Shown here piece after piece: positions 1-53,749 of a DNA stretch of 64,000 bases. Within the stretch, counting starts at the first letter, position 1. Each line of letters starts with the position of its first letter. Source of the DNA: Asticcacaulis machinosus (GTDB lineage Bacteria > Pseudomonadota > Alphaproteobacteria > Caulobacterales > Caulobacteraceae); the NCBI RefSeq assembly GCF_028550435.1, contig NZ_JAQQKV010000001.1:1178001-1242000 (forward strand), read 5' to 3'. The notes under the pieces are model-generated. The model saw only the letters and a program-made list of their open reading frames with translations. It ran no database searches and was not told the origin of the DNA. The position numbers and the translations under genes are program-made.

Positions 1-292
1 GGGTCACGCCAGGTATCCGTTGAATCGATTCAGCCAGGTTGGCATCCGGGAATTTGGCCATGTCTTCGGCAACGATAGCGTCGACGATCCCGTCGTTGCG
101 CTTCTTTATGTTCATGGCGCTTTGAAGCGAGGCCCTGAAGCCTTGCACGACCACGGTTTCAATCTCTTCGGAACTGCCGGCATCACTCTCCTGCGCCTGC
201 ACAGAACCGCAGACCATTGCCAATCCCATCACCGCAGATGTGGCTAACAGACGTGATTTACGGCGAATTACCACCTTTTTGAGTGTCGACAT
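1..292 (-). CDS. TonB-dependent receptor, N-terminal part (cut by left edge)
   Basis: This is the first 97 codons of an outer-membrane TonB-dependent receptor; the rest lies beyond the left edge. The start is an ATG at 292-290 preceded by a GAGGA ribosome binding site. A signal peptide of about 32 residues ends in VQAQ. It is followed by a TonB-box-like ETVVVQGF and the beginning of the plug domain (KFPDANLAESIQRIPGVT), which is typical of the long Xanthomonas/Caulobacter receptors. It is divergent from the IclR gene. From context it probably imports an oligosaccharide for the same fucose/galactose locus (inference). Family assignment is firm; the substrate is unknown. Confidence 0.88.
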   Translation of the reverse strand, partial: MSTLKKVVIRRKSRLLATSAVMGLAMVCGSVQAQESDAGSSEEIETVVVQGFRASLQSAMNIKKRNDGIVDAIVAEDMAKFPDANLAESIQRIPGVT

Positions 293-363: not shown

Positions 364-527
364 GGCGATTCCATTTCCTATATGAAACCTTATACCATCC
401 CCGCTAGTTTGCAACATCTTGATCCAACATGCGCAGAAAAGATTTTTCGTTGATGCAAAAGTAATACAATTTGGGATGCAGCGAGGACATCTTGCCAACG
501 GTTCGACAACCGAATAGTCATGGATTT

Positions 528-2615: not shown

Positions 2616-2643
2616 GGAGGCTCTCTGAGACCGAACGACGAGA

Positions 2644-6161: not shown

Positions 6162-7667
6162 TCAATGGGCGGCGGGGTCAGACAGTTTCATCCCTTCAAT
6201 CTTAAGGACATAGGCGTGACGGCCAGTCCTGGAACCGGGCAATGTCACGTTCATACCGGCATCATTTTGCGTGAACTTGACCGGCTGATCCGATCCGATC
6301 AGGGTTACTTGTTTGGCGCGACCAATATTCTGAGGCAAGGCCATCAGGTTGAGCGTATCCTCCGGCCAGGCCAGCAATATAGCGTAAAGGGTGTCACCTT
6401 TGCGGGTATAGCGAACAATGGAATCGTTATCCTGTTTCCAGGTCCGCGTGCCATAAATCGCCTCCCCGTTCACCTTCAGCCACCCCCCAACGTCACGCAA
6501 AACCGCTGCCTGATCATCAGGAATGGTCCCATCTGCCTTGGGTGAAATATTGAGCAATAGGTTGCCGCCGCGTGACACGTTTTCAATCAGACGATAAAGC
6601 ACCGCCTGCGCACTGAGATGGCCCATGCCTTCGACATAGCCCCACTTGTCGCCCAATGCGTCGTCAACCTGATACGGGGCCGTCTGCAAAGAAAACGGTG
6701 CCTGCCACTGACGCTCATAGTCCTTGACCGTGCCCTCAAGATAGGCATCCTTTTTGGTCGTCAGTGTGACCGGCCTCCCCCACGTTTCGGCGCTGTTATA
6801 ATAATAGGCGGCCAGACGCAGCTTCACCGGATCAAGAGATCTCGGGTTTATGCCATTATCAAACCATAGGAGATCAGGCTGGAACTTATCGATCTGCTCC
6901 TGCGTGCGCAGAAGCCACTCTTCCTGAAAGGCTTCGGACTGCGGCGCTTCGGCATTGTCAATAATCTCGCCCATGCCCGACGGCATACCCGTCTTCTGGG
7001 GTTGGGGTGGTCCGTAGAAATCGGCATATTTCGGGTCAAACAAATCCGTTTTCAACCCCTCTGTCGGGTACATGAAACCCCAGTGCTCGATACGGTGATT
7101 GGACACGCCAAACTTAAGGCCGCGCTTGCGAACCGACACCATCAGGTCGCCCAGGAGATCGCGTTTTGGGCCCATATCCTTGGCATCCCATTTCGTCAGC
7201 TTTGAGTCGTACATGGCAAAGCCATCATGATGCTCTGCGACCGGAATCACATATCTGGCGCCAGAGGCGACGAACAGATCAGCCCAGAGGTCAGGGTCAA
7301 ACCTTTCGGCCTTGAACTGTGGAATGAAGTCCTTGTAGCCGAATTTATCCTGAGCTCCAAAGCGCGTCTCGTGCAACTTGATCACGCCCGCGGTGCGGTA
7401 CATATGCCGTGGATACCACTCACTTTGTGCGGCGGGCACAGAATATACCCCCCAATGAATGAATAGCCCAAACTTTGCGTCTTTGAACCATTCCGGCACC
7501 TGATAATAGGCTTTCAAAGATGACCAGTTGGGTTGCACAGGCCCATCAGGAATCGGCTTAGCCGGCTGCTTTAGCACTTTTCGCGGCGGGGTCGGCGCCT
7601 GGCCTTGAGCCGGTATAGCCGACATCGCGAACCAACATGCGGTCAGCATAAGGGGAAGTGTTTTCAT
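6162..7667 (-). CDS. GH29 alpha-L-fucosidase 1
   Basis: The 501-residue enzyme has a Sec signal peptide (1-23, ending PAQGQ). The GH29 barrel begins at WFKDAKFGLFIHWG. The conserved EHHDGFAMYDS and GLKFGVSNH segments follow, and the nucleophile is Asp270 in LLWFDNG. The C-terminal 100 residues form the usual beta-sandwich. GH29 enzymes remove terminal alpha-L-fucose with retention; the acid/base residue cannot be fixed by eye. It starts 31 bp after the mutarotase gene on the same strand and has a GGAGG site, so the two form an operon. Its likely role is periplasmic release of fucose from imported oligosaccharides. Confidence 0.92.
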   Translation of the reverse strand: MKTLPLMLTACWFAMSAIPAQGQAPTPPRKVLKQPAKPIPDGPVQPNWSSLKAYYQVPEWFKDAKFGLFIHWGVYSVPAAQSEWYPRHMYRTAGVIKLHETRFGAQDKFGYKDFIPQFKAERFDPDLWADLFVASGARYVIPVAEHHDGFAMYDSKLTKWDAKDMGPKRDLLGDLMVSVRKRGLKFGVSNHRIEHWGFMYPTEGLKTDLFDPKYADFYGPPQPQKTGMPSGMGEIIDNAEAPQSEAFQEEWLLRTQEQIDKFQPDLLWFDNGINPRSLDPVKLRLAAYYYNSAETWGRPVTLTTKKDAYLEGTVKDYERQWQAPFSLQTAPYQVDDALGDKWGYVEGMGHLSAQAVLYRLIENVSRGGNLLLNISPKADGTIPDDQAAVLRDVGGWLKVNGEAIYGTRTWKQDNDSIVRYTRKGDTLYAILLAWPEDTLNLMALPQNIGRAKQVTLIGSDQPVKFTQNDAGMNVTLPGSRTGRHAYVLKIEGMKLSDPAAH

Positions 7668-7698
7668 AGAGCGCCTCCGGCGTTAGATAGTGTATCGT

Positions 7699-8052
7699 TC
7701 AAGGCTGTTCGAAAAGGGCATAAATCGTTTGCATGGCGACCCACTTCTCCCCGGGCTGGGCAAAGGGCAACGGCTTTTGAAACTCCCACATCAGCCGCTC
7801 CCACGCCTGCACGTCCTCTGACGCCATGTCCGCCGCAGCTTTGGCGGCCGGCGAAAAATCCGGCCCGACCTCCATGATCATAAACAAGCGATCACCAGCC
7901 TGCCAGATTTCCAATTCACGAATATCAGCGTCACGAATAGAGCGCGTTACCGCTAAAGGCACCTGCCCCGGCGCATGCCATGCCCGGTAGCGCGCAATCA
8001 AATCGGCCTCAGCCACGAGGTCCAAGGCCAGACAATGGCGTCTTATCGTCAT
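7699..8052 (-). CDS. L-rhamnose/L-fucose mutarotase family protein (RhaM-like)
   Basis: This small cytoplasmic protein of 117 residues matches the RhaM/YiiL mutarotase family (DLVAEADLIARYRAWH near the start; EIWQAGDRLFMIMEV and a WE..M..FQ..LP pattern later). Members interconvert alpha and beta anomers of L-rhamnose or L-fucose. The start was set at ATG 8052 behind AGGGAG; longer in-frame versions up to 8130 lack homology. It is the first gene of an operon with the GH29 fucosidase. With FucP and the aldo/keto reductase nearby, fucose is the more likely substrate (inference). Confidence 0.82.
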   Translation of the reverse strand: MTIRRHCLALDLVAEADLIARYRAWHAPGQVPLAVTRSIRDADIRELEIWQAGDRLFMIMEVGPDFSPAAKAAADMASEDVQAWERLMWEFQKPLPFAQPGEKWVAMQTIYALFEQP

Positions 8053-8221
8053 TTGACACTCCCTGTGTCCCCGAGACTTGGTGACGCGGCTATGCGGGCT
8101 GATCAACACATACCTACAAGCCATTGCCAAAGCTTACGCGACACGCTAGACTTTTATATAAGGCAGTTAATAGCGCAAATAAACGACGCTTATCAAATTT
8201 AAAATGCTTTGGGGCGGTGAT

Positions 8222-9877
8222 ATGAACCTGACGAAAAGAATGCTCTTGCACGGCGTGACGGGTCTTGCGCTAGCGTCAACAACTGCCCGCGCCCGGTCAG
8301 CCGAGGCGGCCGAACCCAAGCTGGGGCCGGCCCAAACCGCCAAAGGCCCCTTCGAACCCACTTGGTCGTCTCTCATCGAAGATTACAAGGCCCCGGACTG
8401 GTTTCGCGATGCCAAATTCGGATTATGGGCACATTGGGGCGCGCAATGTGTGCCCGAAGCGGGGGACTGGTATGCCCGCCACATGTATATTCAAGGTTCG
8501 GATCAGTATGATTTTCACGCCAAAACCTATGGCCACCCTGCCGACAATGGTTTCATGGAGATGTACCCGCGCTGGACCGCCGAGCACTTTAATCCGGACG
8601 AATTGCTGGATCTCTACACAGCGGCCGGTGCGAAGTACTTCGTGGCCATGGCCAACCATCATGACAATTTCGACGCGTACCACTCAAAGTTTCATGACTG
8701 GAACTCTGTCAGGGTTGGCCCCAAGAAAGATCTGATTGGCATGTGGGCCAAAGCGGCGCGTGCGCGCGGCTTAAAGTTCGGCGTCTCGAACCATTCGGCA
8801 CATGCCTGGCATTGGTTTCAAACCGCTTACGGATATGATCCAGAAGGCGCGCGCCACGGCGAGCGATATGACGCCTTCCGCCTGACAAAGCGCGACGGCA
8901 AGGGCAAGTGGTGGGACGGACTTGACCCGCAAGCCCTTTACGGCGGCGCGGTGATGCCGCTGCCCAGTGGAATATCGACTATTGAAGACGCCAATGCCTG
9001 GCATGAAAAACACGACCGGGTATGGGATGAGAATCCACCCAAAGAAAACCCGGCCTTTGTGCGGCAATGGTACCTGCGCTGCAAGGATCTGATAGACACC
9101 TATCAGCCGGACCTCGTGTACTTCGACAATTTTGACCTGCCGCTTGGTCAGGCGGGACTGGATATCGCCGCTCACTATTACAATGCGTCGATGCAGTGGC
9201 ATAATGGAAAACTTGAAGCCGTTATCAATACCAAGCACCTTCCCGCCGAGCGCCGAATGGCCGTGATTGAGGATGTCGAACGCGGCTTGCGCCGGGATAT
9301 TGAACCGCACCCATGGCAGACGGACACCTGTATTGGCGATTGGCACTACAACCGCGACCGCTTCACCCGTAAAGATTACCTTCCTGCCGAGACCGTCATT
9401 CACCGGTTATGCGATATTGTCTCGAAGAATGGTAACTTGCTCCTGTCGATACCGGTTCGCGGTGACGGCACAATCGATAGCGAAGAACGACGCATCGTGC
9501 AGGACATCGGGAGTTGGATGAGCCGGTTTGGTGAGGCCATCTACGGAACACGTCCCTGGAAAATATATGGCGAAGGTCCAACCGCCGTGGAATCAGGCAT
9601 GTTTAGTGAGGGTAAGCAAAAACCTTTCACGCCTGCCGATATACGTTTCACGACCAAGGGATCGATCCTTTATGCGATCATACTGGGTCGCCCACTCACT
9701 GATGTGGTCACCATAAGGGCACTCGCCGGAGCCAATATTCAGCGGGTGGCGATCGTAGGCTCAGACACCCCCCTCCCATTCGCATGTGACGCACAGGGTT
9801 TGCAGGTGACAGTCCCCAGCGAGGACAGTCATGACTTTGGGATAGCCTTCCAAATTCGCGGGCAAAACCTTGTGTGA
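8222..9877 (+). CDS. GH29 alpha-L-fucosidase 2
   Basis: This is a second, divergent GH29 enzyme of 551 residues. Its signal resembles a Tat peptide but has KR instead of RR (LTKRMLLHG). The domain starts at WFRDAKFGLWAHWG; NHHDNFDAYHS and GLKFGVSNH are conserved, and the nucleophile aligns with Asp302 in LVYFDNF. Compared with fucosidase 1 it has a longer insertion around 205-275. Start at 8222 rather than 8204, because GGGGCGG precedes it at good distance. It is divergent from the mutarotase-fucosidase 1 operon. The two copies probably cleave different fucosyl linkages. Confidence 0.9.
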   Translation: MNLTKRMLLHGVTGLALASTTARARSAEAAEPKLGPAQTAKGPFEPTWSSLIEDYKAPDWFRDAKFGLWAHWGAQCVPEAGDWYARHMYIQGSDQYDFHAKTYGHPADNGFMEMYPRWTAEHFNPDELLDLYTAAGAKYFVAMANHHDNFDAYHSKFHDWNSVRVGPKKDLIGMWAKAARARGLKFGVSNHSAHAWHWFQTAYGYDPEGARHGERYDAFRLTKRDGKGKWWDGLDPQALYGGAVMPLPSGISTIEDANAWHEKHDRVWDENPPKENPAFVRQWYLRCKDLIDTYQPDLVYFDNFDLPLGQAGLDIAAHYYNASMQWHNGKLEAVINTKHLPAERRMAVIEDVERGLRRDIEPHPWQTDTCIGDWHYNRDRFTRKDYLPAETVIHRLCDIVSKNGNLLLSIPVRGDGTIDSEERRIVQDIGSWMSRFGEAIYGTRPWKIYGEGPTAVESGMFSEGKQKPFTPADIRFTTKGSILYAIILGRPLTDVVTIRALAGANIQRVAIVGSDTPLPFACDAQGLQVTVPSEDSHDFGIAFQIRGQNLV

Positions 9878-10164: not shown

Positions 10165-11682
10165 TCACGGCATGAAGGCACAGTTTTGCTCTATAAAGCG
10201 CCTATGAAGACTCAAGCTACTTGCGGCTGACTGAAAGCCGACCTTTATCTTGGTCATGAAAGATTGGACGTCATTAAAATCCATTATGTTCACCAAGGGG
10301 TCGTATCCCTGCGGCACCGTGCCTTGCCCCAAGAACACCGAGACCCAGCTATCCAACGTAAACAGGTCAGCCTCATTGCGAAAAATCCGGCCATTCGCTT
10401 TGAAAAGTTCGATCTTGTTACGAAGGCTCTCTGGAATCTCCATGGCCCGGCACGCGGCCCAAAACGGCGATGTCGCCTCGGTCATAGTTTTATAGTGCAG
10501 AATGATGAAATCACGCACGAGCTCATATTCCTGCGATGTCAGGCGGTTGTATTCGGCAATATCCTCCGCATGAAACCGTCGATCGGGAAACAGGCTGAGC
10601 AAACGGGATATTCCACTGGCAATCATATGGATGCTGGTCGACTCAAGCGGCTCCAAAAATCCGCCTGCCAGGCCCAGGGCAACACAGTTTTTGGTCCAGG
10701 CTTGCGTGCGTCGCCCTGTAGTAAAGGACAAGATCCTCGGCTCAGCCAAAGGTGCGCCATCAAGATGGCGTAAGAGTGCGCGTTTGGCATCATCGTCGCT
10801 GAGGTAGTCCCGACAATATACATAGCCATTGCCAACGCGGTGCTGCAACGGAATGCGCCAACGCCATCCCGCAAGGTCCTTCGTCGACCGGGTATAAGGC
10901 GTATCCACATCCGGCAAGGCGCTGGGCACAGCCGCCGCTCGGTTGCAGGGTAGCCAGTGGCTCCAGTCCTCATATCCGGTGCCAAGCGCCCCCGAGATGA
11001 GAAGCCCCTGAAATCCGGAACAATCTATGAAAAAATCCCCGTCGAGACACTCACCATTGCTGAGCGTGACGGCCTCTATAAATCCGCTCACACTATCAAG
11101 TTTGACGTCGGCTATCGTCCCTTCGACCCGTGTCACCCCTCTCGCTTCAGCGTATCGCCGCAAGTACTGGGCATATAGGCCCGCATCAAAATGAAACGCA
11201 TATTTCAGCGTCGACAGAGGCAACTTTGCGTCAGGGGCAGGTCTGTGAAACCTGCCCATCTTCGCCGCAATAGCGCTCAGGCAATAGTCTTCGATAGGTC
11301 CGGGATCTACACCTGAAAGCAAAGCCTTCAGCCAGAATTGATGAAACTTTATACCTTCAATATCCAGGCCGTGAAACCCAAACGGATGGATGTAACGGTC
11401 TCCATTTCGGTTCCAATCGACAAATTCGATACCCAGTTTGAATGTACCTTGGGTCGCACGGACAAACTCATCTTCATCAATCCCCAGAGCCCGGTTGAAA
11501 TCAATTATGGACGGGATGGTCGCTTCGCCGACGCCTACCGTGGAGATACTGTCAGATTCAACCAGGATGATTTCAGTCTGGCCCGAGCGCGCCAGTCTCG
11601 ACAGGCCCGCCGCGGCCATCCATCCCGCCGTTCCACCGCCCACAATAAGTATCCGGCGGATATGTTGATCGGTAGTTGTCAC
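10165..11682 (-). CDS. Flavin-dependent tryptophan-halogenase-family protein A
   Basis: The 505-residue protein belongs to the flavin-dependent halogenases. The FAD motif is GGGTAGW (15-21), TFKLGI places Lys82 where PrnA has its catalytic Lys79, and WRWRIP corresponds to the WxWxI signature separating halogenases from monooxygenases. GTG start at 11682. It lies 30 bp after a homologous gene and downstream of a TonB receptor. Such receptor-linked halogenases are common in Caulobacterales, sphingomonads and Xanthomonas. A related enzyme, BrvH, halogenates free indole in vitro, but natural substrates in this setting are unknown. No NAD(P)H:flavin reductase is encoded nearby. Confidence 0.85.
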   Translation of the reverse strand: MTTTDQHIRRILIVGGGTAGWMAAAGLSRLARSGQTEIILVESDSISTVGVGEATIPSIIDFNRALGIDEDEFVRATQGTFKLGIEFVDWNRNGDRYIHPFGFHGLDIEGIKFHQFWLKALLSGVDPGPIEDYCLSAIAAKMGRFHRPAPDAKLPLSTLKYAFHFDAGLYAQYLRRYAEARGVTRVEGTIADVKLDSVSGFIEAVTLSNGECLDGDFFIDCSGFQGLLISGALGTGYEDWSHWLPCNRAAAVPSALPDVDTPYTRSTKDLAGWRWRIPLQHRVGNGYVYCRDYLSDDDAKRALLRHLDGAPLAEPRILSFTTGRRTQAWTKNCVALGLAGGFLEPLESTSIHMIASGISRLLSLFPDRRFHAEDIAEYNRLTSQEYELVRDFIILHYKTMTEATSPFWAACRAMEIPESLRNKIELFKANGRIFRNEADLFTLDSWVSVFLGQGTVPQGYDPLVNIMDFNDVQSFMTKIKVGFQSAASSLSLHRRFIEQNCAFMP

Positions 11683-11712
11683 CGTGATGTGCCCTCGACT
11701 TAAGTTGCGAAA

Positions 11713-13269
11713 TCAATTGGGCCGAATAGGTTGGAAGCCACTTAGACGCACCTGCTCAATCAACGCGCGATGATCGGGCAGCCGCCTCAAGGCATTCTCA
11801 CCCTGCCGGCGAATATCCGTGAAATGCACCTTCGCTTCATCATAGTACTTAAAGCTGTTGGCCTGAGCGCGCAGATCTGATTTAAAACCCATGCCATAAA
11901 GGACATATTGCCAGTTTGCGTCGGTGAATATGTCGTGGTTCAGATCCACATCCATAAAATCAGGGGGGCGATGCCGCCATCGGTCGAGCCGCTCCCGAAG
12001 ACTGTCAGGGACGCTTTCTTCCCGAACATTATCCGCCCAGAACGCTGTGTCGCGCCGCTCCGTTAGGCTATAGTGCAGTTTGATAAAGTCACGGACATGC
12101 TCGTAGCGTTTGACCATAATCTCATTGAATTGGCGCGCGCAGGTCTCGAAGTCTCCGGCAAATGGAAAGCGATTGCTTAGAATAAGCGCCGCGATCTCAA
12201 TAAACCCGATGCCTGTCGCCTCCAAAGGCTCAAAGAAGCCACTTGATAAGCCGATCGCGACACAGTTTTTATGCCAGCTTTCCGCCCGGTACCCGGGCTC
12301 GAAGCTGAATTGACGCGGCGAAAGACTTTCGGCCTTGGCTCCAATATAGGCGCGCAGGACGTTTTCGGCCTCCGCGTCACTGGTGTGCGCTGACGAATAG
12401 ACGTATCCGATCCCCCGCCTGTTATCGAGACCAATATCCCACGTCCACCCCGCCGCCTGAGCGGTCGATATGGTGTAACTCGGCACCGCCATGGCGGGCT
12501 TATCGTAAGGCACCTGAAGCGCAACCGCACGATCGGCAAACAAAATATCGCGACAGGAGGTAAACGGTCGCTTGAGCGCCTCGCCGATCAGCTGAGCCTT
12601 AAAGCCTGTACAATCGATATAAAAATCAGCCTCGAGTTCACCATGTTCATGGGTGTTTAGCGATTTGATATTGCCGTCATCTGAAAGACTAACCGCAGTC
12701 ACTGTACCCTGCAGGTGATGAACCCGCAGTTCGATGGCACGCCGGCGCAGGACGGCGGCGAATTTGACAGCGTCGAAATGATAGGCATAGTTCAGCGGCG
12801 CTGCATAATTTTCGTGCGTATGAAGCTTCGGCGCGCGGGCATTGTCAGCCACGATCTTCTGCACGGTGCTGACCTCATCCCACCCCGCATCGCCTGCGGC
12901 GCCCAATAGCCAGTACGGTAAAAGATCAAGTCCATCCGACGTCTTCGCCGTCTGGAAGGGATGAAAATAATGATCAGGCCCTGAGCCCTTGTTGCCGGGC
13001 GCACGTCGCCAGCCGGCAAACCTTATACCCTGCTTAAAGGTGGCGCTGGCTTCTTTCACCAGGTCGGCCTCGTCAATGCCGATGCGGCGCAAAGTTTTTC
13101 GGATACTGGGAAACGTCCCCTCTCCCACCCCCAAAATCCCTATGTCAGGAGATTCAATCAGGGTAATTTTGAGGCCATCTAAATTTTCGTTATTAAGCAC
13201 GGCCGCCAAATATGCCGCCGTAATCCAGCCCGCGGTTCCCCCGCCGACTATAATGACGCTTTTAATCAC
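11713..13269 (-). CDS. Flavin-dependent tryptophan-halogenase-family protein B
   Basis: This 518-residue paralog of the downstream gene has GGGTAGW at 9-15, Lys79 in ATFKQGI (matching the catalytic lysine of PrnA) and WTWDIGL as the WxWxI signature. Both key motifs are intact, so it may be active. The start is GTG at 13269. It follows the large TonB receptor after an 85-bp gap containing a perfect hairpin. The two halogenase proteins are clearly related but diverged through much of their length, which suggests separate roles or a heteromer rather than a recent duplication (inference). Confidence 0.85.
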   Translation of the reverse strand: MIKSVIIVGGGTAGWITAAYLAAVLNNENLDGLKITLIESPDIGILGVGEGTFPSIRKTLRRIGIDEADLVKEASATFKQGIRFAGWRRAPGNKGSGPDHYFHPFQTAKTSDGLDLLPYWLLGAAGDAGWDEVSTVQKIVADNARAPKLHTHENYAAPLNYAYHFDAVKFAAVLRRRAIELRVHHLQGTVTAVSLSDDGNIKSLNTHEHGELEADFYIDCTGFKAQLIGEALKRPFTSCRDILFADRAVALQVPYDKPAMAVPSYTISTAQAAGWTWDIGLDNRRGIGYVYSSAHTSDAEAENVLRAYIGAKAESLSPRQFSFEPGYRAESWHKNCVAIGLSSGFFEPLEATGIGFIEIAALILSNRFPFAGDFETCARQFNEIMVKRYEHVRDFIKLHYSLTERRDTAFWADNVREESVPDSLRERLDRWRHRPPDFMDVDLNHDIFTDANWQYVLYGMGFKSDLRAQANSFKYYDEAKVHFTDIRRQGENALRRLPDHRALIEQVRLSGFQPIRPN

Positions 13270-13306
13270 AACGGCACTCCAATCCTCGCAAAATGGCTGA
13301 CACAGT

Positions 13307-13342
13307 CATGGTCCTCTCCGGCGACAGCCGGAGAGGACCATG
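13307..13342. repeat. Perfect 16-bp hairpin between receptor and halogenase B
   Basis: CATGGTCCTCTCCGGC (13307-13322) and its exact complement (13327-13342) flank a GACA tetraloop. It lies between the receptor stop (13355) and the halogenase B start (13269). No U-tract follows on either strand, so it is not a classic terminator. It may protect the upstream receptor mRNA or attenuate read-through, making receptor expression exceed halogenase expression (inference). Confidence 0.75.
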
Positions 13343-13354
13343 CAACTGCATTGG

Positions 13355-16300
13355 CTAGAAGGCCAGGTTGAAGCCCAGATTAATCCGCCGATCCGTAACG
13401 AACCAACTGCGCGTGTACACTTGCCCACCCGGATACCCGCCCATCAGGGTTCGGGTTGTCTCATTGGTCAGGTTGTTGGCCTGAACCCAAAAACGGATCT
13501 TCTCACTGATTTTATAATTTACGCCGAGATCAAACTGACCATAGGCGTCGGCATACACCGGAAGAGAGATATCGGTGAAGGTTCCAATCGGTGCCCCTCC
13601 GGCCGCGGGCGTCTGGTAGTAGGTATAGTCGCCGTTGGTGCCATTGGAGTTTGTCGACTGGAGGTACTCTGAGCGCCAGGAATAGGCAAGACGTACGGAC
13701 AGGGCATCCTTTTCATACATCAGTTGAACGTTATAATTATCTTTCGACATACCGACGATGGGCACATCGTCCATGAGCTGGCCGTTGATATCCAGCGCCT
13801 TGGCGCTAGGATTCGAGGAGTCGATATATGTATAGTTTGCTTCAATACCCAGTCCATTCCACGGCGCTGGCAACTCATCAAAGAATTTGCGACCGCCAAT
13901 CTCAAGTCCCTTAATTTTGGCCGTCTCTTTCGCATTGTAAACCTCGGACGTTGTCTGCGTCGTGTTTACAGTCGTGACCGTCCCATCGAGACGTGTAAAC
14001 GTAGCCGAGAACGGTTTCGTTGTATCGCCATAGACGATAAGATCGTCGAGTTTCTTATAGAACAGGGCGAAGTGCACATTCAGGCTGTTCGACGGGTACC
14101 ACTCTGCCGAAAAGTCCACATTCTTCGACATTGTAGGTTTAAGGGTAGGGTTGCCGGTGTTCGCTGTCATATTGTTAAAGATGTCCGGGAAGTCCACCGC
14201 CGGCACAGGGCCCGCCGCTTCCCGGTCATTTGTATTTTTGGTCAAAGACACACCCGCAGACCCCACTGACCGGATGTCTCCATATCCTGGCGGTGACATG
14301 GTCTGGTTTGCGGCGAAGCGCAGATAGAACTGATCGGTTGGTTTAAAATTGATATTGAACGATGGCAAAACCTTGATGTAATCGTTCTCACCGGTGCGGT
14401 TCTCGCCGGTATTCAAGGTCTCATAGTAGTTGTTAGCAAGGCCATCATCGGCCAAGTCGGCGTTGGCTTCAGCCTGGCTCAGATAGAACTGATTGTCGCC
14501 AAAACTAAAGAAACCCGAACTTTCCACTTCGTTTTTGACAACACGAACACCTATATTGCCCGTGTAAGGAATGCCGAACAGACCTGAATCGCTGCGGAAC
14601 TTACCTTGCACATAGAAGGCCGTGGTCGTGACCTGAGTACGAGACGCCCCGTACGGATCGTGATAGACGTTTGCCAACGGCTCACGATCAGGATTGTCAA
14701 TCGTACAGGTACCATCAGGTTTGAATTGCGGCGACCCGTCGGTCGTTGCGAGACATTCTTGGTCATACCCGTAAGTCGATTGCGCATAGATCGCATCATT
14801 CGACTGCATGAGTTGGGCGCTCGGCAGCCAGAAAAGTGCCGGCAGATTGGCCTCTCCGCGGAAAAAATCGCCGAAATCGTAGAGTTCAGTATCTTCCGCG
14901 GCGCCGTTGTTCAGGGTTCTTTGGCTAGAGCCATTCCAACCGCGGCCAAGGGCTGCCCAGTAAGTGCCATCAAAATTATCCCGCTCGACCCGGTCGGCAT
15001 AGCGCACCCCGGCTTCAAGAGTGGTAAAGAAACCCTCATCGAACGCATAGTCGACATCAAGGTTCACAGCGCCCATGGTGCCGTGATTGTTGGTCGTCCG
15101 ATACGCGATGTTATCCCAACCGTAATTGGCCTTGTTCTCCAATCGATCAGAGCTCTCGATGACGAACTGCGGGAGATCTCCCCTCAAGTCAACACTGTAG
15201 GCAAACACCGTCGAGTTGAGACCGAGACCAAAGTTTGTGGATTTCGCTGACGAGTCCACAAATTGAAGGGCACCTTGAACACGCAATTGATCGGTTGGAT
15301 TCCAGGTAAAGCCTTGTGAAAAGTCTCGCGTGACCGTTTCCGAGGTCGCAAAATTACGGCTCGAACCCACGCCTATAGAGTCGGGGGAACAGGTGGTCGG
15401 GGGCCATGAACTCCAGTTGACCCCCTGGGCCTGACCGTTGAACGGCGTGTTGCAATCGAGAAGGAATGGATTGCCGCTGCCATCCGTGCCGCTCGCACTG
15501 CGCCAGCCTTCGTAGCCGTTTGAACCCAGGTACATCCGATCGGCACTGATCAAACCACCATTGGCGTCAAAGGTGACGTTTCCGGACATATCCGGTACCA
15601 GTGTTTTCCCCGTAACGAATACACCTGCGGCGGTATCGTCATTTTTGTACTCAGATACGAACGCGGTCTGGAAGAATGTCCACTGATCGTTCGGCTTCCA
15701 CTGAAAAGCCTCATAAAAACCGGTGCGCTCGCGATTGAATTGATTATCGCCGTACGTAAAGCCACCCGGGAGATACCGGGCCTGGCCGTCGACGTCTCTT
15801 TTGTAATAGGGCTCGGCGCGCAGGAAATTGGCCTCGGAGGAAAATTCCGAAAATGCCAGGTCGACAAGCAATCCAATTTCACCGGCACTGGTGTCCCAAC
15901 GGTCCGTGAAGAGAATAGACGCGCTGCCCGTGGTCTTCTTTATTTTATCACCGTAGCTGGCGCCGATGGCACCCTCAACGGATGGGTTTTTATAGTCAAA
16001 CGGCATCTTGGTGCGCAGATCAACCGTGCCGCCCGTGCCGCCTTCAATCATGTCCGCGCGCGACGCCTTGTAAACGTCAACGGCGGCCATCAATTCGGGG
16101 GTTACATCCCCCCAGGACAGGCCGCCGCCACCGTTGGCGCTAAAAACCTCGCGGCCATTGAGCGTCGCCGTAACACCCGACAAACCCCGCACCTGAATAC
16201 CCGATCCTTCGACCGAGAACGCATCCGGATTGTTGAGCGCGGCGAACCGCACCATCGTCACGCCGGAAACGCGCTGAAGCACCTCGGTAATTGAGTTATC

Positions 16301-16561
16301 CGGCAATTTACCGGCATCGTCAGCCACGACGGAATCTATAAGGGTGTCTGAGTTTTTCTTCCGCTCAGTCGCACTTTGCAAAGCCTTACGGCGTGCAGTT
16401 ACCACCACCGTAACACCGTCGTCGGCAGGTGCCGTCGCCTCGACATCCCCCGTTACGGCCTGAGCCTGTGAGAACGCGGGAGATGTGAGCGCTACCATAG
16501 CGAGCGCAGCCACAGATACCCCGTCACGCATCAATGATGCGCGCGATTTCTTCCTAACCAT
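13355..16561 (-). CDS. TonB-dependent receptor (Xanthomonas/Caulobacter type)
   Basis: This 1068-residue outer-membrane receptor has a signal peptide (about 1-33), a TonB-box region (VTVVVTARRKALQSA), a plug domain (KLPDNSITEVLQRVSGVTM, near 90-220) and a long beta-barrel ending in the aromatic-terminated INLGFNLAF. Length and plug motifs match the subfamily that takes up plant and algal oligosaccharides. It heads an operon with two halogenase genes, and an operator-like palindrome lies about 157 bp upstream. With fucosidases and galactosidases on both sides, a fucosylated galactose-containing oligosaccharide is its likely cargo (inference). Confidence 0.92.
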   Translation of the reverse strand: MVRKKSRASLMRDGVSVAALAMVALTSPAFSQAQAVTGDVEATAPADDGVTVVVTARRKALQSATERKKNSDTLIDSVVADDAGKLPDNSITEVLQRVSGVTMVRFAALNNPDAFSVEGSGIQVRGLSGVTATLNGREVFSANGGGGLSWGDVTPELMAAVDVYKASRADMIEGGTGGTVDLRTKMPFDYKNPSVEGAIGASYGDKIKKTTGSASILFTDRWDTSAGEIGLLVDLAFSEFSSEANFLRAEPYYKRDVDGQARYLPGGFTYGDNQFNRERTGFYEAFQWKPNDQWTFFQTAFVSEYKNDDTAAGVFVTGKTLVPDMSGNVTFDANGGLISADRMYLGSNGYEGWRSASGTDGSGNPFLLDCNTPFNGQAQGVNWSSWPPTTCSPDSIGVGSSRNFATSETVTRDFSQGFTWNPTDQLRVQGALQFVDSSAKSTNFGLGLNSTVFAYSVDLRGDLPQFVIESSDRLENKANYGWDNIAYRTTNNHGTMGAVNLDVDYAFDEGFFTTLEAGVRYADRVERDNFDGTYWAALGRGWNGSSQRTLNNGAAEDTELYDFGDFFRGEANLPALFWLPSAQLMQSNDAIYAQSTYGYDQECLATTDGSPQFKPDGTCTIDNPDREPLANVYHDPYGASRTQVTTTAFYVQGKFRSDSGLFGIPYTGNIGVRVVKNEVESSGFFSFGDNQFYLSQAEANADLADDGLANNYYETLNTGENRTGENDYIKVLPSFNINFKPTDQFYLRFAANQTMSPPGYGDIRSVGSAGVSLTKNTNDREAAGPVPAVDFPDIFNNMTANTGNPTLKPTMSKNVDFSAEWYPSNSLNVHFALFYKKLDDLIVYGDTTKPFSATFTRLDGTVTTVNTTQTTSEVYNAKETAKIKGLEIGGRKFFDELPAPWNGLGIEANYTYIDSSNPSAKALDINGQLMDDVPIVGMSKDNYNVQLMYEKDALSVRLAYSWRSEYLQSTNSNGTNGDYTYYQTPAAGGAPIGTFTDISLPVYADAYGQFDLGVNYKISEKIRFWVQANNLTNETTRTLMGGYPGGQVYTRSWFVTDRRINLGFNLAF

Positions 16562-16943: not shown

Positions 16944-19868
16944 CTATTGCACCGTAAATTTTAAGGTCGCGGCAGCTTGCCCCTGAGCCTTCGCCACTAC
17001 AGTTGCGGGCCCTGCGCCGCCGGTAGATTGAACGATGATCTGGGCATAGCCATTGAATACACGCCGCGCCCAAATCGGCGCGGGCGTCGTCACCCGCAGA
17101 GACGCCCACCGTCCCCCCTCTTGCGCGGATTGCGCGAGTAGACCAAACCCGCCCGCCGGTGACCTGATGAGGTAGTTCAGGCTGTTGGTGTCCTTGATCT
17201 TGGCGGGATCGAGCTTAATGACGAGAAGCCCATCGAGCTGAACCGGCGCGACGGCTTCACCGTTAACATACACGACCTGATCACGCGTCACGTCGGCCAC
17301 GAACAACTCAACAGTGTCATCATCAGTCAGTTTTGGCCGTGCAAATTCCGCGCGAACCAGATAATAGGGGCTTTCCGGTGGCCTTTGGTCCTCTGGGACC
17401 CATTGAAACGGTCGGCGCCACGTCGACGCATCGTCATCCGCGAGGTGCGCCAGAAGCGCCTCTTTCGCCTCGCCCCCCTTAACGCGCCAGTTCTTTACCG
17501 TTAGAAAGTGGTGGCGCTCGGTGGGTTTATCGGGCTCATGGGAACCTGGATCACCGTTGCCCATGCCAATGATCTGAATTGGGCCGGTCGTCTCGAACTG
17601 CACCAGACTATCGGACGTAGGCACAACCCGCCCCTGCTTGTCGGCGACACTCACAGTTATCACAGAGATATCGGAACCATCCGCCTTGATCCGCGTACGG
17701 TCCGCCGCAAGTTGAACCGACACGCCAGGTCCGGTCGTTTCGACCGTTTGCGTTGCGACGAGCTTGCCGTTCCTAAAGCCTTTTGCCACTAGTTTTCCCG
17801 ATTGATAGGGCACCGACCATTGCAGATGCCCCCCTACCGTCATGGCCTTTCGCCCAAGCGATTTTTTATTCAGGAATAGTTCGACCTCATCCGTGTTCGC
17901 ATAGGCGCGCACATCGATATCTTCACCTTCGCGTCCGCTCCAATTCCAATGCGGCAGAAGGTGAACCATAGGCTCATGGGTCCAGACTGATTTAAGGTAA
18001 TAGCCACTGTCTTTGATGACACCGGTCGTATCCAACATACCAAATTGCGACGATACCGCAGGCCATCCGAACGGCGTTGTTTCCCCTCGATAATCGAATC
18101 CGGTCCAGACAAACATGCCTGACAAAAATGGTCGCGCGGCATTGAAACGCCAGCCTTCCTCTATGGACGCTGTGCGTGCGCCGCCGGACCGCTTATCGTA
18201 CGCGGCAATATGGACGCGCTCAGGATCATCGACATAGACACCGCGCGTCGCAAAGGTTAGGCCCTCCTCCGTCACGAGCATCGGACGATCGGGGTAGCGT
18301 TTATGCATGGCATCAATGTCATGCTGAGCTTTGTAGTTAAAGCCTATGACCTCAGACCCGGCAGCCGTTCCCTGCGTTCCGCCCGACCCGGATGCCGCAA
18401 CCGTGGTGAGCCGAGTCGGATCCATCCTTCTCACTATGGCCTGCATCTCCTGAGTAAGGCGTGTGCCGACCTCGGTGTTTTCAATGGCCCACTCTTCATT
18501 GCCCACTGACCACAGGATGACCGACGGATGATTTCGATCCCGTCGAACCATGCGCTCCAGCTCATTTCGTATTTGCGGGGTGGTCCCCATCATACGGTGC
18601 TCGTCGATTACAAGTATGCCCAGCCGGTCGGCAGCCTCGAGCAGTTCTTTGGTCGGCGGGTGGTGAGAAGCGCGGTATGCGTTGACTCCGATCTCTTTGA
18701 GGCGCTTGAAGCGATATTCGTGCAAGGCATCGGGCAGCGCGACACCCACCCCGGCATGATCCTGGTGGTTATTCGTACCGTGCAACTTGATGGACTTGCC
18801 GTTCAGGAAGAAGCCGTCATTGGCATCAAATCGAAGCGTTCTTATTCCAAACACCGTATCATAACTGTCTACAACCTCGCCCTTGCGCTTAACTTGCGTG
18901 ATTGCCTTGTAAAGATAGGGGTCTTCCAATGACCACAGCCTTACTCTATCCATCTTGAACTGTGCGGCAACCCGCGATGACGACGCCCCGTTCAGGGTTT
19001 GGGGCGACGTTTCAAAACGGGCTACAGACGTTCCATCGGCGTCTACGATTAGGTGTTCGATGGTGAACCCCTCGACACCTTTACCGTCGTTACTTATCTC
19101 AACATCGATCGAGATTTCCGCGGAGCCGTCGGCCACCTCGGTACGGACAAAGGTTCCCCACGGCGCGACATGCAAAGGGTCAGTCTTTGTCAGCCAAACG
19201 TGGCGGTAGATTCCGGCCCCCTCATACCACCACCCCTCCTCCATAGTCGCGTCTACCCGGACGGCAATGACATTTTCACCGCCATAGTTGAGGTAATCCG
19301 TGATGTCGTACTGGAAACTGGAATAGCCGCTGCGCTCATTGCCGATATAGTGGCCGTTTACCCACACCACGCTATCACGGAAGACGCCGTCAAACTCGAC
19401 GGCAATGCGACGCCCCTTATCCTGCGCGCTGATAGGTAGTGCACGCCTGTACCAACCAACACTGTTTTCGGGAAACGTGGCCCCCAGAGCCTTTGAGCCA
19501 TGGTTGGCACTCGCTCGTGAACTAAATGGCAGCTCAACCGCCCAGTCATGAGGCAGGTTTAAGCGGCGCCATGCCGTGTCGTTAAATTTGAGGTCAGCCG
19601 GCCCGTCACCGTACCCCGCCTTGGCAAAGAAGAACCCTCGGGTACCATGACTGAAGTCCTGGGATGCATCATAAGGGTGACCAAAGGCGAAACGCCAATC
19701 TCGATCTATGTTGAAACGTTCTCGCGCCGCTGACTGCGCCTTAACTCGGACGCCCGGTGTCCTGTCACCGTCTACGGGGGCCCCCTGGGCCGCCCCGGAG
19801 GTCACAGCCAGTGCAAGTGATAACGCTGTCATCACGGCGCGTGATTTAATTCCGGATAGAATTTTCAT
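16944..19868 (-). CDS. GH2 beta-galactosidase-like enzyme 1
   Basis: This 974-residue exported GH2 enzyme has a signal peptide (1-29) and a sugar-binding jelly roll (about 50-235). An immunoglobulin-like domain follows (235-345), then the barrel (350-640) with acid/base Glu458 (SVGNEEW) and probable nucleophile Glu534 (VTEEG). C-terminal DUF4982-like and Ig-like domains follow, with an inserted segment around 820-920 before the last strand. I chose ATG 19868 behind AGGGAA; starts further upstream lack a signal peptide. It is divergent from GH2 enzyme 2. GH2 also includes glucuronidases and mannosidases, so galactosidase activity is the likely but not the only option. Confidence 0.86.
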   Translation of the reverse strand: MKILSGIKSRAVMTALSLALAVTSGAAQGAPVDGDRTPGVRVKAQSAARERFNIDRDWRFAFGHPYDASQDFSHGTRGFFFAKAGYGDGPADLKFNDTAWRRLNLPHDWAVELPFSSRASANHGSKALGATFPENSVGWYRRALPISAQDKGRRIAVEFDGVFRDSVVWVNGHYIGNERSGYSSFQYDITDYLNYGGENVIAVRVDATMEEGWWYEGAGIYRHVWLTKTDPLHVAPWGTFVRTEVADGSAEISIDVEISNDGKGVEGFTIEHLIVDADGTSVARFETSPQTLNGASSSRVAAQFKMDRVRLWSLEDPYLYKAITQVKRKGEVVDSYDTVFGIRTLRFDANDGFFLNGKSIKLHGTNNHQDHAGVGVALPDALHEYRFKRLKEIGVNAYRASHHPPTKELLEAADRLGILVIDEHRMMGTTPQIRNELERMVRRDRNHPSVILWSVGNEEWAIENTEVGTRLTQEMQAIVRRMDPTRLTTVAASGSGGTQGTAAGSEVIGFNYKAQHDIDAMHKRYPDRPMLVTEEGLTFATRGVYVDDPERVHIAAYDKRSGGARTASIEEGWRFNAARPFLSGMFVWTGFDYRGETTPFGWPAVSSQFGMLDTTGVIKDSGYYLKSVWTHEPMVHLLPHWNWSGREGEDIDVRAYANTDEVELFLNKKSLGRKAMTVGGHLQWSVPYQSGKLVAKGFRNGKLVATQTVETTGPGVSVQLAADRTRIKADGSDISVITVSVADKQGRVVPTSDSLVQFETTGPIQIIGMGNGDPGSHEPDKPTERHHFLTVKNWRVKGGEAKEALLAHLADDDASTWRRPFQWVPEDQRPPESPYYLVRAEFARPKLTDDDTVELFVADVTRDQVVYVNGEAVAPVQLDGLLVIKLDPAKIKDTNSLNYLIRSPAGGFGLLAQSAQEGGRWASLRVTTPAPIWARRVFNGYAQIIVQSTGGAGPATVVAKAQGQAAATLKFTVQ

Positions 19869-20195
19869 TGTTGGGATTCCCTGATTACCTGCTTGTGTCG
19901 TTCTTTTTTCGTCTAACCTATCGTCCAAACGGGCACAAGATTGTCCTACAATTTAAGGGTTGCCATATTCGAAGGGTTCCATCCGCGAAGCCGCCAATCG
20001 AATATTTTACGCCGAAAATGAACTACAAAAGCATAAATATACCAATGATAGCGCTCTCATTTTGAGTTTGACATCATCCGCGAGGTCATTAATATTACAT
20101 ATAGCAGTAAATTCCACCACCGGCAGTTAGGGTGGGGATTATACTCAGACAATTAAAACCACAGAAGTGGTGTTTCGGGAACAGGGGCTAATTTA
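19869..20195. other. Divergent promoter region between two GH2 genes
   Basis: This 327-bp gap holds the two opposing GH2 promoters. Visible elements are the LacI-type palindrome at 20044-20061 and an 8-bp inverted repeat, ATATTCGA at 19965-19972 with TCGAATAT at 19998-20005. No gene is supported here. Confidence 0.5.
20044..20061. promoter_or_regulatory. LacI-type operator candidate between divergent GH2 genes
   Basis: AATGATAGCGCTCTCATT is an 18-bp palindrome with one mismatched pair and the central AGCGCT seen also at 16718-16733. It lies about 135 bp before the plus-strand GH2 start and about 175 bp before the minus-strand one, so one bound repressor could control both. Confidence 0.55.
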
Positions 20196-23063
20196 GTGAA
20201 CAGACGTGACCTTCTTAAGGGAACTACCGGCGTGGTGATGGGATCGGCTTGGGGCCCTGTCGCGGCCTCATCCGCCGCCGCGACGCAGCCAGCCACACGT
20301 CCCTTGGGTCAGTCGGTTTCTAAGATGCGGCAGGTCTTATCATTAAATAGAGGCTGGCGTTTTCTCGAAGGTGACGTGCCTTTTCCTAAAGTTATGGGGC
20401 ATGGTTGGTCATATGCGAACGCAAAGGCAGGGTCGGCCTGGGGCGCGGCGTCTCCGATCTTTGACGATTCAGAATGGTCAACCGTTACGCTGCCCCACGA
20501 TTTTGCGAGCTTTCAACTTCCAGACAAAAACGAGAACCTTGCGCAAGGCTACAGAAAACGTGGCATCGCCTGGTACCGCAATCTCTTGAGGTTTGAGCCC
20601 TCCGACCGTGGCAAGCACATTGAACTTCACCTGGATGGGATTTCCACACACGCCACCGTTTGGCTGAACGGCACGCTCGTGAACCGAAATTGGTCGGGCT
20701 ACAATTCAATCTACATCGACATCACACCTTACATTACCTACGGCGAGTCGTTGAACTCATTGGTGGTTCGCGTCGATGCCGATCAAATGCAAGGGTGGTG
20801 GTATGAGGGTGCCGGCATTTACCGGAACACCTGGATTGTCAAAAGAGACCCGGTCCATATCGTTACGGACGGCGTCTTTGCTCACCCGGTCAAATACGGC
20901 GACCAGTGGACCATTCCTCTAGAGGTTACTCTCTACAATGCCGGGAAAACGGCCCGCACGGTTCAAGTCACGTCAACCGTGCGAGACCCAAAAGGCAAGG
21001 CGATTGCAACGACCCGAATGTCCGCCACCGTGACGGCGCTTAGTCGCGCGGTCTCCACGGGCAGTATGACCGTAAGCCAACCAAGCCTTTGGAATATCGA
21101 AACGCCGTTTCTCTATAGTATCACCACTCAGGTAATCAGCCATGATCGGGTTCTCGACGAAGTGGTAACGCCTGCCGGGTTCCGCACCCAACACTTTGAT
21201 CCAAACCGTGGCTTCTTTCTCAATGACCAACCCGTTAAGTTAAAAGGGGTGTGCATACATCAGGACCACGCGGGCGTTGGCGTGGCCGTGCCGCACGGAA
21301 TTCTTCACTATCGTTTGCAGCGCTTGAAGGACCTTGGATGCAACGCCATACGCTGCTCTCACAACGCGCAAGACAAGTACTTCTATGAGCTCTGCGATCA
21401 GATGGGCTTCCTCGTCATGGACGAGAACCGGGTCTTCAACCCCTCCCCTATTCACATGAATGAACTGGAGTGGCTGGTACGCCGTGACCGCAACCATCCT
21501 AGCGTTATCCTTTGGTCAGTGTTTAATGAGGAGCCGATGCAAGGTAGTGAGCAAGGGTTCGAAATGGTGCGCCGGATGAGCGCCCTAGTGAAAACGCTGG
21601 ACACCTCACGCCCCGTAACGGCCGCGATGAATGATGGTCTTTTCACGCCCATCAATGTTTCCCAAGCCGTCGACGTTGTCGGCTTTAATTACCAATATCA
21701 ATCATATGACGCTTTTCACAAAGCAAATCCGAATATCCCTCTCACCTCTTCGGAAGACACCTCAGCCTATCAAACGCGCGGCGAGTACACGACCGACGAT
21801 GCCCGTCACATCAAGGCAACCTACGACGATGATGCCGCAGAATGGGGAACCACCCATCGGACGGGATGGAAAGCCATTGCTGAGCGCGACTTTATAGCCG
21901 GGGCTTTTGTATGGACTGGTTTTGACTATCATGGCGAGCCGACCCCTTATGACTGGCCAAGTAACTCGTCCCAGTTCGGCATAATGGACCTGTGCGGCTT
22001 CGAAAAGAATGCGTTTTGGCTTCACAAAGCGCAATGGGATCAAAGCCCGGTCCTTCGAATAGCGCCTCACTGGACCTGGTCCGGCAAGCAAGGACAGCCA
22101 ATTCGCGTCATGGCCTTTCATAATATGGACGAGGTCGAGTTGTTTTTGAACGGAAAATCCCTCGGTAAACAAAAGGGCGACATTTTCGAGATGAACCGAT
22201 GGGAGGTACCCTACGCCCCAGGTACGTTACACGCCGTCGGTTATAGGCAAGGCAAGGCTGCCGCAAAGCACGTCGTTGAGACAACGGGCGCACCGGTTTC
22301 TTTGAAACTCACGCCACACCGCAAGTCTATGTGGGGCGATGGACTGGATGCACAACCCATTAAGGTTGAGGCGGTCGACGCCAGGGGACGCCATGTCCCC
22401 ATCGCACAAAATCAGATCACGTTCGACATCACCGGTGGAGACATCATCGGACTGGGCAATGGCAACCCCAACGATGTCTCCAGTGAAAAGGGCAACACAC
22501 GTGCCCTGTTCAACGGGCTGGCCCAGATAATTGTCCAAACGAAGGAAAATAGCGCGGGGACACTACAGATTACCGCTACCGCTGCGGGATTGACCGCCGC
22601 AAAAATCGAGATTGAGGTCGAAAAAGCCGCAGCGTGGCCTTATCAGGACGTCTCGACCCCCGTTCAAATCACGGAAGGTTGGCGTCGCGCGCCCGCGCAA
22701 AGTGCGCCAATAGACCCCAATCTACGCCCGAAGGACAACGACATGAACTCATGGGGCTGGTTTCGTCCCGGTGTGCCGTTCTCCCCTCTCGCCACGGATA
22801 GCTACGTGCTGTGCGCAACCGTCGTCGAACCATTCAAGCGGATTCGCAAAGCTGGCGGCCAGGTGGAATGCCTGAACCTCATGGGTGCGTGCACGGTCTT
22901 CGTCGATGGTATTGAAGCTGCCAACAAATCGGATCCCGGCGCTGGAGATTTAAAATTCAACCTGCCCGCTGGGGATGGCGCCCGCCGTCTAACCATCATT
23001 TTTAGGGCCAAAGCGGGCCAGCCTTTCGGGTTTGGCGACGTCTTACGAATTCGAACGGTTTAA
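20196..23063 (+). CDS. GH2 beta-galactosidase-like enzyme 2 (Tat signal)
   Basis: The 955-residue GH2 enzyme begins with GTG at 20196 behind AGGGG. It carries a twin-arginine signal (NRRDLLKG, followed by a small hydrophobic stretch and Ala-rich cleavage region). Domains follow the GH2 order: jelly roll (about 50-215), Ig-like (220-330) and barrel (340-620) with acid/base Glu445 (SVFNEEP) and nucleophile Glu520 (LTSSEDT). DUF4982-like and further beta domains close the protein. It is homologous to GH2 enzyme 1 across much of its length. Tat export suggests folding before export, whereas enzyme 1 has a Sec signal. Confidence 0.86.
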   Translation: MNRRDLLKGTTGVVMGSAWGPVAASSAAATQPATRPLGQSVSKMRQVLSLNRGWRFLEGDVPFPKVMGHGWSYANAKAGSAWGAASPIFDDSEWSTVTLPHDFASFQLPDKNENLAQGYRKRGIAWYRNLLRFEPSDRGKHIELHLDGISTHATVWLNGTLVNRNWSGYNSIYIDITPYITYGESLNSLVVRVDADQMQGWWYEGAGIYRNTWIVKRDPVHIVTDGVFAHPVKYGDQWTIPLEVTLYNAGKTARTVQVTSTVRDPKGKAIATTRMSATVTALSRAVSTGSMTVSQPSLWNIETPFLYSITTQVISHDRVLDEVVTPAGFRTQHFDPNRGFFLNDQPVKLKGVCIHQDHAGVGVAVPHGILHYRLQRLKDLGCNAIRCSHNAQDKYFYELCDQMGFLVMDENRVFNPSPIHMNELEWLVRRDRNHPSVILWSVFNEEPMQGSEQGFEMVRRMSALVKTLDTSRPVTAAMNDGLFTPINVSQAVDVVGFNYQYQSYDAFHKANPNIPLTSSEDTSAYQTRGEYTTDDARHIKATYDDDAAEWGTTHRTGWKAIAERDFIAGAFVWTGFDYHGEPTPYDWPSNSSQFGIMDLCGFEKNAFWLHKAQWDQSPVLRIAPHWTWSGKQGQPIRVMAFHNMDEVELFLNGKSLGKQKGDIFEMNRWEVPYAPGTLHAVGYRQGKAAAKHVVETTGAPVSLKLTPHRKSMWGDGLDAQPIKVEAVDARGRHVPIAQNQITFDITGGDIIGLGNGNPNDVSSEKGNTRALFNGLAQIIVQTKENSAGTLQITATAAGLTAAKIEIEVEKAAAWPYQDVSTPVQITEGWRRAPAQSAPIDPNLRPKDNDMNSWGWFRPGVPFSPLATDSYVLCATVVEPFKRIRKAGGQVECLNLMGACTVFVDGIEAANKSDPGAGDLKFNLPAGDGARRLTIIFRAKAGQPFGFGDVLRIRTV

Positions 23064-23193
23064 TGCCCTTCGCGCCGCCGTGCCTCCAACATCCTCGTCA
23101 ATTTGGCGATCAGGGCCTAAGTTGACGATTTGGACAGACCTAAGCGCCTGTCGAAACCGACACGGCCACATTCCAAACCGCTATTTCAGCGAT

Positions 23194-28985: not shown

Positions 28986-28997
28986 AATACCGCACAA

Positions 28998-53658: not shown

Positions 53659-53749
53659 AGATGTCCCGCTACGAATTTTATCGTTCAGGCCGTTACTTTA
53701 CAGGGGAAAGCTTAATATTTGTCCTAGATGGGAAAACGCTCTGGCGCGG

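Follow-up and report, generated by a model that had tools for sequence, protein, structure and literature searches.

PrnA and RebH, two members of the halogenase family PF04820, serve antibiotic pathways, and the same family includes enzymes that act on peptides, such as MibH. According to passages of the paper on the related enzyme BrvH, its activity on indole is weak and its natural substrate unknown, it lacks the residues with which tryptophan is bound through its amino acid moiety, and its active site might take larger substrates; the brvH gene is adjoined by a second halogenase gene, 42.7% identical (PMC5945002). Excerpts from a second paper give the native substrates as unknown for both BrvH and three Xcc halogenases (PMC7336383). 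Here we report on two PF04820 halogenases, HalA and HalB, encoded behind a TonB-dependent receptor (TBDR) in a 64,000-nucleotide stretch of the Asticcacaulis machinosus genome (NCBI RefSeq assembly GCF_028550435.1, contig NZ_JAQQKV010000001.1, positions 1,178,001 to 1,242,000; hereafter the window). The distribution of such genes suggests that the target of the halogenases is tied to the receptor, not to one sugar.

HalA (BrvH-like, 505 amino acids; 10165-11682, minus strand) and HalB (2PYX-like, 518 amino acids; 11713-13269, minus strand) are encoded by open reading frames (ORFs) which, like that of the receptor (TIGR01782, 1068 amino acids; 13355-16561, minus strand; 558.9 bits versus a cutoff of 310), are open and complete at these coordinates. 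Both proteins gave whole-protein matches to PF04820 (629.5 bits for HalA and 449.7 bits for HalB; Pfam cutoff, 21). Alignment showed that both keep the flavin adenine dinucleotide (FAD) motif GGGTAGW, of the GxGxxG type, and a lysine at the catalytic position (K82 in HalA, K79 in HalB) inside TFKxGI. The WxWxIP motif reads WRWRIP in HalA (W273/W275) and WTWDIG in HalB (W275/W277), where W-x-W-x-I is kept and the proline is replaced by glycine as in 2pyx; the glutamate motif is EPLEST (E344/E347) and EPLEAT (E347/E350), respectively. ORFs, scores, and motifs thus bear out an initial annotation of the stretch, which had described two intact, diverged halogenases behind a TonB receptor.

Among solved structures, the best relatives of HalA were 6frl (BrvH, 513 bits) and then 6y1w (503 bits), a closest similarity that places HalA, though not HalB, with the BrvH-type enzymes; the activity of BrvH on indole in vitro had been correctly stated in the initial annotation (PMC5945002). 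The best relatives of HalB were 2pyx, 9lu2, and 9ltb (429, 390, and 363 bits). PrnA and RebH were far more distant from the two proteins (251 to 281 bits). HalA reached at most 279 bits with PrnA, RebH, and the tryptophan 5- and 6-halogenases, and HalB scored 281 bits with PrnA, 311 to 314 bits with the chains named as tryptophan 6- and 5-halogenases (5hy5, 8fov), and 320 bits with 6nsd; neither was thus closest to the enzymes acting on free tryptophan. Judged by these similarities, HalA and HalB represent two old subfamilies and are no recent copies of each other.

The three genes lie on the minus strand, with gaps of 85 bp between the receptor gene and HalB and 30 bp between HalB and HalA; since order and strand are shared and the gaps are short, co-transcription of receptor, HalB, and HalA is likely. 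Both halogenases are probably cytosolic, since their N termini open straight into the nucleotide-binding fold. As the initial annotation had noted, there is no flavin reductase near the pair, the sole PF01613 match in the genome lying about 0.92 Mb away (C1:264943; other reductase families were not searched). We interpret the surrounding genes, described below, as a locus for fucoside uptake.

The pair is one instance of a recurrent arrangement. PF04820 gave 24 matches in this genome, corresponding to 23 genes in 14 loci (referred to here, as are loci in other genomes, by L numbers), and 7 of the 14 contain two or three halogenases and hold 16 of the genes. A TonB receptor is found at a distance of no more than 2.5 kb from 11 loci, which together hold 20 genes. 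Ten of these (19 genes) are within that distance of a TIGR01782 receptor, whereas random placement gave 1.3 on average and never more than 7 in 20,000 draws; in the eleventh (L033), the halogenase adjoins a receptor outside TIGR01782. The glycoside hydrolase (GH) families next to the halogenase loci are varied, comprising GH13 (L030), GH20 (L021), GH10/GH43/GH3 (L023), GH127 (L029), GH43/GH5 (L026), and GH29/GH2 (window locus), while at L022, L025, and L028 Pfam detected no glycoside hydrolase among the scanned neighbors and esterase, hydrolase, or oxygenase families instead. A special link to GH29/GH2 is therefore not supported, the halogenases being found equally beside the other families, from GH13 and GH20 to GH10/GH43, GH127, and GH43/GH5. 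At L022, a TauD-type dioxygenase gene (7007-8137) follows two tandem halogenases behind a receptor.

In a tree of 38 receptors of this genome, with L024 (halogenase at 4.7 kb) scored as not linked, the 11 halogenase-linked receptors accounted for 6 label changes versus 9.6 after shuffling, only 1 of 500 shuffles being as low. One clade (support 100/99) unites 6 of the 11 and spans different neighboring hydrolases. Because these enzymes go along with receptors whose neighboring genes for glycan degradation are unrelated, because a second receptor of the fucoside locus has no adjoining halogenase, and because the linked receptors cluster on the tree, we tentatively favor, while giving it somewhat less than an even chance, a substrate common to the receptors, for which the receptor precursor is the simplest candidate.

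This distribution bears directly on the possibility that the enzymes act on aromatic groups decorating the fucosylated glycan that is imported. Plant polymers can bear aromatic esters, the locus encodes a GDSL esterase (1380-2702, minus strand; Pfam), and GH39/GH43/GH5 or BNR/GH35-like/GH31/GH29 sets, which would suit xylan or xyloglucan, are present at related loci with HalB-HalA or HalB. The halogenases, however, follow receptors, not one glycan, and occur beside GH13 and GH20 genes, where aromatic decoration is unexpected; moreover, the second receptor of the fucoside locus is without one and a congener's locus with two GH29 genes and a GH2 gene makes do with a single copy. A decorated glycan, which the initial annotation had put forward, is hence unsupported, and we regard it as quite improbable. 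It was discarded as a principal explanation because the hydrolases next to halogenases vary so widely and the second receptor has no halogenase beside it.

To what extent the pair itself belongs to the receptor can be gauged from the window receptor's homologs. A search of 299 genomes of the order with this receptor, a less biased starting point, gave six matches at an E value of ≤1e-150 in five genomes, with two candidates scored per genome, so that these counts are lower bounds. A halogenase lies directly downstream of five of the six matched receptors: HalB plus HalA behind two, both from this genome, and a single HalA behind three, with none behind the sixth (L152). One of the loci, L155 from the same genus, encodes two GH29 proteins and a GH2 protein (Pfam confirmed) next to a single halogenase, and a fucoside locus can therefore do without the second. 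Of the expectation that the pair would accompany this receptor in most genomes, the link to the receptor holds; the need for two halogenases does not.

The question reaches beyond this genome. Sixty genomes were drawn from the family, and with this one set aside, 10 of the remaining 59 had three or more PF04820 matches; a control search with PF04820 also hit Caulobacter vibrioides. Overall, 22 of the 60 had a match at an E value of ≤1e-20, and the five genomes of the same genus had at least 22, 19, 3, 9, and 14 matches, all of these genome counts being lower bounds because no more than 22 candidates were scored per genome. A wider set of HalB loci was taken from the best 80 of 573 matches to a HalB alignment. 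Seventy-eight were resolved; L046 and L094, which had no HalB ORF in the final pass, were excluded, although at each of them a receptor ORF overlaps or adjoins the site of HalB. Neighbor labels (SapC, Cupin_8, GH) were assigned with small models derived from proteins of this genome, and Pfam confirmed the ten labels checked; the GH3, LacI, and MFS labels are rough, and a second model supplied 18 further receptor labels.

A TonB receptor was present in the HalB gene block (gaps of <700 bp) at 64 of the 78 resolved loci. The blocks also included SapC (39), Cupin_8 (22), HalA (14), and two or more halogenases (22), the figure for SapC being possibly low since the model overlooked the SapC gene at L145, one of two that this genome has. 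The exact order of the window, TBDR-HalB-HalA, recurs at four loci from Sphingobium and Sphingomonas (L036, L037, L041, and L044), and L038 has a HalB-HalA block that is cut at a contig end and was counted as lacking a receptor. A longer order, TBDR-HalB-SapC-Cupin_8-HalA on one strand, was found at L079, L085, L097, L100, and L110, as well as at L121 from the family search, with HalA reversed at L112; in this genome, L032 reads TBDR-SapC-Cupin_8-HalA. From these orders, the window appears to be a subset of one ordered cassette. In a tree of 65 rows, the five nearest to the window HalA were the HalA proteins of the five HalB-HalA loci, although no starred branch groups them.

BNR-repeat proteins follow HalB-HalA at L037, L038, and L044, with GH35-like, GH31, and GH29 genes also at L037; by its gene content, this type looks like a xyloglucan locus. 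HalB matches were also present on plasmids (91 of 72,556 records), the best plasmid relative being at positions 52925-54463 of NZ_CP156083.1 (Croceibacterium; 59.6% identity).

Could the halogenase genes simply hitch-hike when receptor genes are transferred or duplicated? In a second block in this genome, at L026, the receptor is 63% and HalB 65% identical to those of the window, as if the two genes had been copied or moved jointly. The HalA proteins of the two blocks are only 50% identical, however, which indicates partners that were exchanged yet retained. Receptor linkage furthermore spans alpha-, beta-, and gammaproteobacteria with varying order and partners, motifs and reading frames are kept, and the linkage far exceeds random placement. 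We consider passive adjacency very improbable.

The Cupin_8-labeled proteins have HxD at one alignment column in 35 of 35 cases, as in Fe/2-oxoglutarate hydroxylases. For SapC (L032:11088-11816 and 42 further proteins), the predicted model was confident (mean predicted local distance difference test [pLDDT] score, 96.6) and found no Protein Data Bank match at an E value of ≤0.001 (351 matches up to an E value of 10; probability of ≤0.12 among the 50 matches listed), so that no function can be deduced for it. The second SapC of this genome (L145:4263-4934) lies next to an ORF with weak resemblance to a receptor (44 bits against the local receptor model).

Nine multi-halogenase loci outside the window (L021, L023, and L114 to L120, from six genomes and three genera), selected because a gene with a low score is flanked there by genes with full scores, encode a diverged middle paralog, HalC (8923-10428 in L021 and 8718-10112 in L023). 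All nine HalC proteins have lost the lysine (replaced by S, T, Y, or A), the second tryptophan in the WxW motif, and the second of the two ExxE glutamates, and six also the first glutamate, while the remaining 147 of 156 halogenases keep the lysine, tryptophan, and glutamates. HalC forms one clade (SH-aLRT support, 99), in which L023 carries a long-branch warning, and overlaps a neighboring gene by 4 bp at L021, L116, and L118. Its ratio of nonsynonymous to synonymous substitution rates (dN/dS) is about 0.14 between L114 and L115, where the flanking genes have 0.11 and 0.12, and about 0.20 for the pair L119 and L120, in which synonymous changes are near saturation. Its predicted model had a mean pLDDT of 71.5 and was weak in the substrate half. 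By its residues and substitution pattern, HalC is catalytically dead yet an open and constrained reading frame, and its position between active paralogs suggests hetero-oligomers or a substrate-handling subunit.

Put together, these data would fit a scheme in which HalA and HalB are catalytically competent, cytosolic, FADH2-dependent halogenases that are probably produced along with the neighboring TonB receptor upon induction of the fucoside locus. The pair looks like a pared-down form of a receptor-linked tailoring cassette, TBDR-HalB-SapC-Cupin_8-HalA, in which members are gained and lost. By analogy with the peptide-acting members of the family, with the HxD kept by the Cupin_8 partner, and with a BrvH active site that might admit larger substrates, the substrate might, speculatively, be an aromatic side chain of the receptor polypeptide before its export, or of a co-produced peptide, in which case the presence of two halogenases would reflect two sites or two aromatic types. 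That the receptor itself is modified is speculation on our part. A broader version, in which a widespread system of cytosolic halogenases, a Cupin_8 hydroxylase, and SapC covalently modifies aromatic or other side chains of the unexported receptor precursor or of a peptide partner, with HalC as a subunit between active halogenases in some loci, seems to us unlikely; if it were true, halogenated outer-membrane receptors would constitute a new class of bacterial protein modification.

A number of observations weigh against a receptor-linked substrate. In this genome, three halogenase loci have no receptor within 2.5 kb (L024, where it is at 4.7 kb, L027, and L031), L145 has SapC and no halogenase, and HalA did not simply travel with the L026 block, given its lower identity there. 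The receptor at L152, which has no halogenase, is a close homolog of that of the window. The window itself lacks SapC and Cupin_8, having HalB-HalA only of the cassette. W542 of the receptor was at first present in 7 of 11 linked and 0 of 27 unlinked receptors, but in an alignment of 125 receptors it was also found in 6 of 27 halogenase-free relatives and was dropped as a marker residue. The tryptophan content of linked receptors was not significantly higher (median, 1.59% versus 1.34%; p = 0.09), and receptor and HalA distances within this genome were not significantly correlated (Mantel r = 0.15, p = 0.30; without L033, r = 0.45, p = 0.064). None of these three indirect tests thus supported a modification of the receptor.

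Copies of HalB that lack a receptor were found at 13 named loci (L056 to L065, L068, L073, and L090) and at L027, L123, and L124, which likewise counts against a tie to receptors. Seven of the 14 loci formed by the 13 and L027 have a gene for an AlgE-like outer-membrane barrel within 2.5 kb, and at least 7 of the 14 (7 of the 9 with scanned neighbors) have a Na+/H+ exchanger gene nearby; at L123 and L124, HalB lies beside SSF and LacI genes, together with GH16 at L123. Such receptor-free copies speak for another possibility, that the enzymes halogenate a small indolic or phenolic molecule (a signal, a competition agent, or an aromatic imported with plant matter) and are induced with glycan uptake as feeding and competition coincide. 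This is a possibility we take seriously while considering it somewhat less likely than a receptor-linked substrate, given that 23 copies tied to many receptors would be a costly route to one metabolite and that no aromatic biosynthetic cluster was reported among the 34 Pfam-scanned ORFs of the window. The same scan, which left out smaller ORFs, reported no polyketide synthase or nonribosomal peptide synthetase families, in agreement with the initial annotation of a locus devoid of secondary-metabolite genes.

The protein-maturing flavoenzymes LodB, GoxB, and QhpG are believed to hydroxylate or oxidize a protein or peptide, and HalA, HalB, or both match the models for these enzymes, weakly and far below the cutoff. 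HalA and HalB could thus conceivably be flavin-dependent oxygenases that have given up halogenation for a reaction of this kind. All 147 canonical sequences nevertheless retain the lysine and the glutamates, and halogenation in vitro has been described for the related BrvH (PMC5945002); we deem a nonhalogenating role improbable. With a substrate common to the receptors as the tentatively favored reading, the search for the native substrate moves from glycan chemistry to the receptor or a product made with it.

The genes around the pair make up a TonB-linked carbohydrate-utilization locus, with a receptor, glycoside hydrolases, and a sugar permease. Upstream of the receptor lie a GH2 beta-galactosidase of the GalA type (16944-19928, minus strand; NF041462 above cutoff) and two further GH2 family proteins (20196-23063 and 23032-25644, plus strand; Pfam). 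On the other side, a GH29 alpha-L-fucosidase gene is convergent with HalA (8204-9877, plus strand; Pfam), followed by a second one (6162-7667, minus strand; Pfam), a zinc-type alcohol dehydrogenase probably involved in sugar catabolism (5136-6146, plus strand), the L-fucose:H+ symporter FucP (3717-5018, minus strand; TIGR00885 above cutoff), an aldo/keto reductase (2644-3702, minus strand; Pfam), the GDSL esterase, and an IclR-type regulator (471-1337, plus strand; Pfam). The 5′ part of the second TonB receptor is at 1-292 (minus strand); the rest of it lies to the left of the window, as do a GH95 gene that follows it and a gene of the rhamnosidase type.

At the edge of the glycan locus, a phage-type integrase gene (27636-28997) lies 5′ of a tRNA-Met gene (29235-29310). 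That the locus is carried by an integrated element was not shown, the last 20 bases of the tRNA-Met having no second copy in the window at ≤3 mismatches. A putative 2OG-Fe(II) oxygenase (PF13759; 33296-33931) is encoded 1.2 kb from another TonB receptor (35110-37458), with an oxidoreductase gene between them.

Among the described systems, the Xanthomonas campestris B100 halogenases, including Xcc4156, are close to HalA, which scored 503 bits against 6y1w, the entry we take to be Xcc4156. TonB is mentioned neither in the main text of the BrvH paper (PMC5945002) nor in the paper on Xcc4156, passages of which give no genomic context (PMC7336383). A halogenase survey likewise has no occurrence of TonB in its main text, and passages of a metatranscriptome paper tie tryptophan-halogenase transcripts to Colwellia and phages with no receptor gene context. 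In titles and abstract openings, a coverage outside which most subscription journals fall, no work on TonB-receptor-linked halogenases was found, although four papers contain both terms (PMC3377617, PMC3684763, PMC4727817, and PMC7333567). Each gene is a new member of a known family, and the receptor-linked multienzyme arrangement with SapC, Cupin_8, and HalC is a variant for which we found no description within this coverage.

A comparative genomics study of peptide-modifying dioxygenases by Iyer et al. in 2010 may mention such neighborhoods. With loci of the type known as carbohydrate utilization containing TonB-dependent receptor (CUT) or polysaccharide utilization locus (PUL), the window shares the receptor, the glycoside hydrolases, the inner-membrane sugar permease, and the regulator; to our knowledge, a cytosolic set of halogenating or oxidizing enzymes is absent from the textbook CUT/PUL-type locus. 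PrnA, RebH, and the tryptophan 5- and 6-halogenases have the Pfam family and catalytic motifs in common with HalA and HalB at lower similarity, while the W-x-W-D-I form of HalB is shared by 2pyx, a structural-genomics "tryptophan halogenase," and by 9lu2. The nearest parallel is BrvH of Brevundimonas BAL3 (6frl), the closest solved relative of HalA, which, from what passages of its description indicate, likewise has a second halogenase gene as its neighbor.

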